Position numbers and translations under genes: made by a program | Source of the DNA: Phycisphaeraceae bacterium D3-23 | GTDB lineage: Bacteria > Planctomycetota > Phycisphaerae > Phycisphaerales > Phycisphaeraceae | Length of the DNA: 64,000 bases | Reading direction: 5' to 3' | Assembly: GCA_039555135.1 (NCBI GenBank) | Contig: CP114179.1 | Location: 434,001-498,000, forward strand | In this document: in pieces, positions 53,789 through 56,572 of the stretch | Position numbering within the stretch: the first letter of the stretch is position 1 | Layout of the letters: each line of letters starts with the position of its first letter | The notes under the pieces: model-generated | Databases searched by the model: none | Told to the model about the DNA's origin: nothing | What the model saw: only the letters and a program-made list of their open reading frames with translations

Positions 53789-55174
53789 ATGCCATCACGC
53801 AAGACCTCCTTTCATCACCGTCGTGCGAGCATGTGCTGCCTGATGCTGCTTCCGGCACTGCTGTTAGCCGCTGCCCAGGCCGCCGCGCAGTGGCCGCAGT
53901 ACCTCGGCCCGACCGGTGATGCCGTGTCACCCGAAACGGGGTTGCTTGAGGCGTGGCCCGAAGCCGGCCCGCCCGAGGCGTGGCAGATCGAGCTTGGGCC
54001 CGGGTTCGGCGGCGCGGCGGTCCACAACGGGCAGGTCTTCCTGCTGGACCGCGAGCACGGCGAGTCGGATGTGCTGCGCGTCCTCGATCTGGCAACCGGC
54101 GAAGAACTCTGGCGGCACAGCTACGAAGCCATGGGACGCGTGGGCTACGAGGGCTCCCGCAGCACCCCGGCGGTGACCGAGCAGCACGTCTTCACAACCG
54201 GGGAGTTCGGGCATCTCCACGCCTTCAACCGAGCGACCCGCGATGTCGCCTGGTCGGTCAACCTGATGGAGGCCTACCCCGGCGAACGTGAACCCGAGGA
54301 AGAAGGCGGCGGACGTCGCCGTGGCCGAGGCGGCGGACGCGGGGGCGACAACGGGCAGAACTGGGGGTACGGCACGAATCCGCTCCTGGTCGACGACTTG
54401 GTCGTCGTGGTCAGCCCGCCCGCCAACACGCCCGGGCTGGTCGCCTACGATCAACTGACAGGTGAAGTGGCGTGGGAGTCTGAGCCCTTTGGTTGCGGCA
54501 ACTGGTATGTTTCACCGCTTCTTAAGACGATCGCCGACACGCGAGGCATCGCGATCCGTACCGATGTCGAGCTGTTCTTCATCGACCCAGACAACGGCGA
54601 AACGCTTTTCCGAACCCCTGTATTCGAGCGGGGGATGATCCCGATCCCGCCGGTCACGGTGCTGCCCGACGGCGAGCGCGTGTTCGTCACCAGCGGGTAC
54701 GAGGCCGGCTCGGTCATGCTGAATGTCACGCGTGACGCGGACGGCGGCTTCCAGGTCGAGGAGGTGTACCGCACCGTCGAAGGCAGCCAGATCCATCCGG
54801 GCATCGCCATCGACGGCCACCTGTATATCAACCACACGGAGAACTCGAACTCTCGCGGGGCTCGGCAACGGTACGCCGGGCTCGCCTGCGTCGATCTGGC
54901 GACGGGTGAAGTAAAGTGGAACACCGGCGACGACCCGTTCGTGGGACGCGGCGCCATCCTGTACGTGGACGGCAAGCTCATCCTGCAGGACGCCGAGGGT
55001 GGCAAGCTGTTCCTGATCGAGCCGAGCCCCGAGGGCTTCAGACCGATCAGCAGTTTCCAGGCCGTCGACGCGCAGCAGCGTCAGGCCTGGGCCCCACTCG
55101 CTATTGCTGACGGGCGTCTTCTTGTCCGGGACCAGAGCGGGATGAAGTGCTTTAGTCTGCGTGAGGACCGCTAG
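53789..55174 (+). CDS. Secreted PQQ-like beta-propeller protein with Arg-Gly-rich insert (propeller 6)
   Basis: 461 residues. Signal peptide (MCCLMLLPALLLAAAQAAA from about residue 15) is followed by QWPQYLGPTGDAVSPETGLLEAWPE, cut here, typical of this class. Blades include LDLATGEELWRHS, YDQLTGEVAWES, IDPDNGETLFR and VDLATGEVKWNTG. A disordered acidic-to-basic patch (EPEEEGGGRRRGRGGGRGG) at about residues 170-188 interrupts blade 3 and could bind nucleic acid or polyanions. It is 176 bases after the ABC permease, behind a hairpin, so may have its own promoter. Its stop lies at an insertion-sequence-end-like sequence. Confidence 0.85.
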   Translation: MPSRKTSFHHRRASMCCLMLLPALLLAAAQAAAQWPQYLGPTGDAVSPETGLLEAWPEAGPPEAWQIELGPGFGGAAVHNGQVFLLDREHGESDVLRVLDLATGEELWRHSYEAMGRVGYEGSRSTPAVTEQHVFTTGEFGHLHAFNRATRDVAWSVNLMEAYPGEREPEEEGGGRRRGRGGGRGGDNGQNWGYGTNPLLVDDLVVVVSPPANTPGLVAYDQLTGEVAWESEPFGCGNWYVSPLLKTIADTRGIAIRTDVELFFIDPDNGETLFRTPVFERGMIPIPPVTVLPDGERVFVTSGYEAGSVMLNVTRDADGGFQVEEVYRTVEGSQIHPGIAIDGHLYINHTENSNSRGARQRYAGLACVDLATGEVKWNTGDDPFVGRGAILYVDGKLILQDAEGGKLFLIEPSPEGFRPISSFQAVDAQQRQAWAPLAIADGRLLVRDQSGMKCFSLREDR

Positions 55175-56186
55175 CAGGCTGCTGCAAAAAAACCTGTCTT
55201 CCCTGGGGCCCCTACCCGCCGTCTGAGCCCATTGGTCATGGGCCGATGCGTTTTGTTCTGTCTGAATTGGCGTGGATCGTTTGTTCAGTACCAGCAGCTT
55301 CCTCATCCGCACGAGGTGGTAGGCCGGGGCCGCTACCGCAAGGCGCTCCTCCTCGGTCAAAATCTTCGAGACGTCCAGCTTCAGTGCCTGGTCGTAACCA
55401 GCAGGCGATTGCCAAACCCAGGCGCTGGAGCGGCTCAGCCACCTCACGAACCGCGACGCTGTCTTGAGCCGGCCCCGTACAGTGTGGACCGAGGTCTTGT
55501 CCCCCTTCGCGCCGTGCCGACGTGACGGGGGCCGACGGCCGGCTACGCCAGTAATCGCCGATACGCTGGATGTCGTCGTACTTGAAGTCCGTGAGGTGCA
55601 TGTCCTGCGCGGCCCGCTTCAGCGACTCGACATCACGCGGCTCGTTTGCGCCGCCGTGGCCGCTCTTCTTTGCGTGTGCCCCGTCGGCCTTGATCGCCGC
55701 GTACAACGCCTGCCATGCCTTAGTCCGACCGCTGCATCAGTGAGCCGCTAGGTTCTTTGGGCCTGCACCTCGGCTTGGCGCAGGCCCGACGCGACCACCA
55801 CTCATTGCACGCAACCGCTCCGCGTACAGAGCCGGGTCGGACGGGACAACCAAGATCATCGAGCACCAGTCCCGCAGGTTCATGATGCGCGCGATACGGC
55901 CGAGTGATTCGGAGTTGATAGCTGTGTCAGGGCGCGGCGAACACCGACAGCACGTGGATCTCGTTGCCGATCATGCGCTCCCGGGGATGAAGACAAATCA
56001 TCAACGAGCGACAGGACAGTACGTCTAAAAACAAAGAGAAAGCATCAATATCTCGTGACCAAGCCATCAATCAAAGCGTCAAATGGCGACTTTGATGTGT
56101 TTTCTGTCTCACCTACTCCCGCCCAGATCGGCCTAAATCACTTATACAAAAAAGTGTTTTTGCCGATCCGGGCGAGGGGTGAGAAA
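55175..56186. other. Decayed interval between last propeller and tmRNA
   Basis: About one kilobase without an intact gene. It starts with GCAGGCTGCTGCAAAAAAA (55174-55192), which resembles the outer ends of some insertion sequences. On the minus strand it holds a degraded integrase-like sequence (55225-55740) and a second coding-like fragment near 55800-55915 reading IMNLRDWCSMILVVPSDPAL, of unknown family. The part from about 55980 to 56170 is AT-richer and contains nothing recognised. Confidence 0.55.
55225..55740 (-). pseudogene. Tyrosine-recombinase (integrase) core-binding-domain remnant
   Basis: Two minus-strand frames join into one coding-like sequence. The first reads ...KAWQALYAAIKADG...LKRAAQDMHLTDFKYDDIQRIGDYWRSRPSAPVTS; the second continues DKTSVHTVRGRLKTASRFVRWLSRSSAWVW and ends near VRMRKLLVLN. 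The pattern IxxxxxYWRxRP, then S-x-x-T-V-x-x-x-L..FVRWLHxS..W, is that of the SAM-like core-binding domain of planctomycete site-specific integrases. The catalytic domain with its R-H-R-Y residues is absent and the frame is broken at about 55510. Its location within 0.5 kb of the tmRNA 3' end supports an integrase origin, since ssrA is a favoured island target. The family assignment is by motif only. Confidence 0.5.
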
Positions 56187-56572
56187 TGGAGCCGGGGGGA
56201 TTTGAACCCCCGTCCCGAGACAGTCGGTCAATGGCTTCTACGCGTATAGTCGTTCGTTTGATCTTACTCAGTCGGCGAGGAGCGACACCCTACGCCTGAG
56301 CCAGCCGGAGTATTGTTTAGCTCGCGGACGCTACGGCGTCATCGTTGAGCGATCTGGCATTGCTTTTCACCCCCGAGCAGCCGCCAGCGGGCGGCCCGAG
56401 GGTGTTGCTGTCTAATAAATTAGGCAGCGAGGCGGGCCGGCGCGAAGCCGATCCGACCAGCGATTGGGTTATCGTTGGCATTTATAGATTTGTACGTGGT
56501 TTTACGAGGCCTACGTACACCTCGACGCGCCACACAGAGACGTTCCCTGTCCGGTCGATTCCAGTCGGCCCC
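56187..56572 (-). ncRNA. ssrA: Transfer-messenger RNA (tmRNA)
   Basis: Read on the minus strand, the RNA begins GGGGCCGACTGG at 56572 and ends GGGTTCAAATCCCCCCGGCTCCA at 56187 (shown in part). The 5' GGGGCCG and 3' CGGCTCC form a seven-pair acceptor stem with one G-U; the T-arm is GGGGGTTCAAATCCCCC. CCA is not encoded. The tag reading frame (56420-56479) starts at a GCC resume codon and encodes ANDNPIAGRIGFAPARLAA, ending in the ClpXP-type LAA degron and a stop. At 386 bases it is a normal one-piece tmRNA. With SmpB it rescues stalled ribosomes and tags the nascent chain. Confidence 0.95.
56420..56479 (-). other. tmRNA tag-peptide reading frame
   Basis: Nineteen codons plus TAA encode ANDNPIAGRIGFAPARLAA. 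The start AND resembles the E. coli tag (ANDENYALAA) and the terminal LAA is the conserved protease signal. The tag is longer than the roughly ten residues in Proteobacteria and contains two Arg residues. A second in-frame-independent stop (TAG) follows shortly. Confidence 0.9.

Follow-up and report, generated by a model that had tools for sequence, protein, structure and literature searches.

The sequence directly behind the tmRNA gene (ssrA) of this planctomycete genome contains a decayed tyrosine integrase. Very probably, a mobile element once occupied the 3' end of ssrA and left this scar, and the neighbouring operon is native and not cargo of that element. The window, i.e., the whole stretch of DNA analysed here, comprises 64,000 nucleotides (G000:C1:434001-498000) of a single-contig genome of 4.62 Mb, and all positions below are window positions unless stated otherwise. 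ARAGORN located ssrA at 56187-56572 on the minus strand, and the Rfam model RF00023 matched 56184-56572 of the same strand over its full length (E 1.4e-65). The gene is intact and carries the tag ANDNPIAGRIGFAPARLAA. Directly 3' of the tmRNA is a long hairpin (56107-56184, minus strand) with arms of about 33 bp and a folding energy of -47.8 kcal/mol (z -9.3; 0 of 200 shuffled sequences were equally low). It is unusually long, much stronger than the usual terminator, and probably represents the terminator or processing hairpin of ssrA. By eye, a shorter hairpin-like sequence is found at the same place after ssrA in two other genomes, G020 and G072.

The initial annotation had placed a decayed core-binding-domain sequence on the minus strand within about 0.5 kb of the tmRNA 3' end, and this was confirmed. 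The core-binding domain occupies 55331-55712 (minus strand, the strand of ssrA) just beyond the 3' end of ssrA, with a gap of 475 bp between 55712 and the tmRNA 3' end at 56187. Among 301 genomes of the order, a protein search revealed two intact relatives, in G020 and G072, with 50-52% identity (E 4e-37 and 5e-37). In a frameshift-aware alignment, the sequence from 55712 to 55331 corresponds to residues 238-362 of the G020 integrase (125 residues); two frames read in order as one protein domain, interrupted by a single frameshift near 55520-55535. A family profile was then built from four intact relatives. When searched against the source genome, it matched the window at 55527-55892 (contig positions 489527-489892, E 1.2e-17) and again at 55337-55570 (E 5e-15). 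N-terminal traces of the same integrase are thus present at 55713-55892 (minus strand), as is also seen in an alignment to the G122 integrase. One TGA stop, near 55738, falls inside the family-profile match. The catalytic domain is absent after 55331: the rest of the scar, which extends from the last gene to the remnant (55175-55330) and is where this domain would be expected to start, showed no similarity in our searches. Roughly 1 kb of scar is what remains.

Other searches yielded no additional copies. Genome contigs gave no match to the fragment and, when searched with the family alignment, matches in four genomes, none beyond those already known; a scan of viral contigs gave no match, and tblastn of the fragment against ssrA neighbourhoods other than those of G020 and G072 produced low-complexity matches only. 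Four congeners, none of them a close strain, possess ssrA and lack the remnant. As their flanks downstream of ssrA all differ, there is no clean empty site among them.

The placement of the remnant is that of its relatives. In G020 and G072, which belong to two other genera of the family, the intact integrase gene is situated directly behind ssrA on the same strand. Order-wide (400 genomes) and phylum-wide (392 genomes) searches with the family profile, followed by construction of a tree, grouped the remnant with exactly these two proteins (SH-aLRT 100) inside a clade of 25 divergent tyrosine recombinases. Among the 24 other members, 17 are encoded directly downstream of ssrA (12 according to ARAGORN and five more according to Rfam), five lie downstream of a tRNA gene, and two are additional copies located behind one that is itself ssrA-linked. 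The orientation of all 24 agrees with that seen in the window. Both the search and the tree bear out the proposal of an ssrA-linked integrase scar. The remnant is a decayed integrase from an ssrA-targeting lineage; it is a dead member of the clade and an ordinary scar without identifiable cargo. In two genera, represented by G751 (L164/L180) and G728 (L166/L179), two different integrase-like genes of the clade are arranged in tandem directly behind ssrA.

According to the initial annotation, failure of profile searches to find an integrase domain would have spoken against this assignment. Pfam indeed detected nothing in the remnant fragment, even at E≤10, yet the intact relatives and the family profile do identify the domain. 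The Pfam result is misleading here because the intact members that were scanned also score below the PF00589 gathering cut-off of 27.1 bits: the G072 protein scored 25.8 bits and the G122 protein 13.8 bits, while the G020 protein and the window fragment gave no match. A PDB sequence search with the family profile also yielded no significant match. In contrast to these sequence comparisons, the fold is that of the superfamily. An AlphaFold model of the G072 protein, of middling confidence (mean pLDDT 62.6), was matched by Foldseek to XerH, XerA and the Tn1549 Int with a probability of 1.00, and its catalytic domain was superimposed on that of Tn1549 Int by VIA-align with a Z score of 13.3 and an rmsd of 2.7 over 159 residues. 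The top rows of both comparisons for this intact relative were all tyrosine recombinases. In addition, hhalign of the family against eight integrases of the source genome gave a probability of 99.1% (E 7e-18). The intact relative thus has both the core-binding and the catalytic domain, whereas the window copy keeps the core-binding part only.

The canonical catalytic set of Arg-Lys-His-Arg-His plus Tyr is not complete in the clade, and in the window copy the catalytic domain is missing altogether. Of 24 aligned members, 23 have another residue in place of the first arginine (Arg I), and the first histidine of the HxxR motif is mostly replaced, often by lysine. The second arginine and the tyrosine are invariant (23/23 each); the late histidine is kept in 21 of 23 members and the lysine in 22 of 24. 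As the clade lacks Arg I, recombinase activity is not certain, and its members are assigned to the tyrosine recombinases by fold and clade, not as active enzymes. A precedent for a displaced Arg I is known from the IntDOT (CTnDOT) subgroup, in which the first catalytic arginine does not occupy its usual position but is reported to come from one located more downstream (PMC8138268); the likeness concerns this feature and not a sequence link. By analogy, we conjecture that the invariant Arg 373 of the clade may replace Arg I. Another integrase of the source genome (L008, G000:C1:289725-290213) also lacks Arg I and has the motif LNCGYGPED; the loss is therefore not confined to the ssrA clade.

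If an element had been inserted at ssrA, a second copy of the tmRNA 3' end might be expected at its far end, as the initial annotation had anticipated. None was found in the source genome: no repeat of the ssrA 3' end of at least 14 nt is present within 216 kb on the downstream side. A genome-wide blastn search with the ssrA 3' end returned a sole match of 34 bp at 2785982, which was rejected as a tRNA-Ile gene within a tRNA cluster. We therefore refer to a scar and not to an island, and the loss of the far repeat leaves nothing that would delimit the element or demonstrate what it carried. The relatives were more informative. We examined the 60 kb downstream of ssrA in six genomes that carry a clade integrase there, and three of them contain short direct repeats of the ssrA 3' end: G736 has one of 23 bp at 43.8 kb, G751 one of 17 bp at 36.2 kb, and G515 (L204-L206, C10:1776000-1835999) three of 16-17 bp, located at 23.0, 32.0 and 55.5 kb. 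The inverted control gave zero matches. These repeats support the presence of integrated, sometimes tandem, islands at the loci of the clade. The triple repeat in G515 resembles a tandem array of islands.

Alternatively, the integrase might have been a solo gene resident behind ssrA, belonging to no island, that has simply decayed here. This would agree with the lack of a far repeat in G546, G745 and G466 (within 60 kb each) and in the 70 kb behind ssrA of G072; the contig of G020 ends 2.7 kb past ssrA. However, the family is patchily distributed, with any match at all in 20 of the 392 genomes of the phylum sample, its members also occur behind several different tRNA genes, and attachment-like repeats accompany half of the ssrA-linked loci tested. 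We therefore consider a solo gene improbable.

The scar of a mobile element at ssrA being favoured, the question arises whether the element also carried the adjacent genes. The initial annotation had suggested that the whole 26.8-55.2 kb block, including an aromatic operon, could have been brought in by an island inserted at ssrA, and that the block is bracketed by the integrase scar on one side and, at 26.4 kb, by an IS630 remnant on the other. The end of the block does adjoin the scar. At 26.4 kb, however, neither Pfam nor NCBIfam profiles matched an IS630 transposase and the DNA has no second copy in the genome, leaving the IS630 remnant, and with it the left bracket, without support; nor is there an attachment repeat on the left. 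Within the block, a conserved gene cluster at 31916-53612 (plus strand) encodes, as judged by Pfam, PQQ-type beta-propellers, a sodium symporter, aldehyde and Fe-alcohol dehydrogenases, a radical SAM protein, a flavin halogenase-like protein, a glycosyltransferase, an AMP ligase and ABC/FtsX proteins. The core of this operon is collinear in nine relatives (G001, G003, G018, G029, G041, G045, G049, G057 and G060, in the last only up to the contig end), and a tenth genome, G004, has part of it on a short contig. These genomes range from members of the same genus, through the same family, to other families of the order. For most genes the identity is 53-86% within the genus and 36-65% outside it, elsewhere in the order; for the radical SAM protein it declines from 83-86% (genus) through 62-64% (family) to 53-58% (order). 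The G+C content is flat.

Comparison of relatives at ssrA had been suggested, with conservation of the block at the same place counting against transfer. Conservation was found, across the order; linkage to ssrA mostly was not. The operon and ssrA are on different contigs in G001, G003, G004, G029, G041, G045, G049 and G060, and 0.9 Mb apart in G057; in G018, ssrA is about 14 kb from the operon, at its other end. A few observations are more compatible with transfer: G002, of the same genus, gave no match to the Fe-alcohol dehydrogenase at E 1e-30, and the flanks of the operon differ between genera, the flanking genes outside it not being conserved between most of them. For the beta-propeller gene between the cluster and the scar (53789-55174), which may be part either of the operon or of the lost element, only paralogues at 25-27% identity were found. 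Single-gene transfers within the operon may have occurred. Arrival of the whole block with an ssrA-inserted island is nevertheless even less probable than a solo integrase gene. Since the operon is collinear across the order, its identity tracks taxonomy, and it mostly lies away from ssrA, we regard it as native to the lineage, and the scar would adjoin it by coincidence of position. A plausible story of transfer is hereby settled as wrong. Finally, the blank Pfam result might be cited in favour of a spurious or low-complexity resemblance within G+C-rich non-coding sequence. This idea can be dismissed: relatives match at E 4e-37 from the same position beside ssrA, and the two frames follow a single protein in its order, with one frameshift between them.

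For the favoured scar of an ssrA-inserted element, we propose the following history: a divergent tyrosine recombinase would have recombined the attachment site of an element with the tmRNA 3' end; as the intact relatives suggest, ssrA would have survived integration undamaged, and the integrase gene would have come to lie immediately after it; the element, of whatever size and cargo, would afterwards have disappeared or decayed; its integrase would have lost the catalytic half by deletion and picked up a frameshift and a stop codon in the remainder; the far attachment site would have vanished; and the native operon may have reached the neighbourhood of ssrA through ordinary rearrangement.

The clade resembles the tRNA/tmRNA-targeting tyrosine integrases of genomic islands catalogued by Islander (PMC4383910) in its fold, in its strand and position behind an intact RNA gene, and in the attachment-like repeats of the RNA 3' end near some of its members. 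It differs from them in that the window copy is dead and without a catalytic domain, and in that the intact members lack Arg I and, where scanned, fall below the PF00589 cut-off. In Dehalococcoides, islands have repeatedly integrated at ssrA, with downstream direct repeats and tandem islands (PMC3146451). Tandem insertion at ssrA is the point of likeness, comparable to the three repeats of G515; however, DsiB of Dehalococcoides is a serine recombinase, whereas the present clade consists of tyrosine recombinases.

The clade itself, missed by the standard profile and without Arg I, is the part that deserves a second look. Scars of ssrA islands in Planctomycetota can escape the standard integrase profile, and the clade raises two questions: by what mechanism tyrosine recombinases act when the usual first arginine is missing, and whether DNA is moved by them at ssrA. 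It is possible, at somewhat under an even chance, that the remnant belongs to a planctomycete-wide, ssrA-specialised lineage without Arg I and with a resolvase-like helix-turn-helix end (seen in the two best members), which went unnoticed as the standard profile misses it, and which may be a main route of ssrA islands in the phylum and use a relocated arginine.

A second, unrelated family of ssrA integrases exists in the same order (L055:203-1183 in the same-genus G004, L048:2444-3400, L047:14827-15948 and L049:3794-4391). It could not be aligned with the clade by tblastn and, unlike the clade, has the opposite orientation, with its C-terminus reading into the ssrA 3' end. In G004, the ssrA 3' end itself codes for this C-terminus (WSRGESNPRPE...). 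At three of these loci, repeats of 31-55 bp of the ssrA 3' end are located 9.7-18 kb away, bounding islands.
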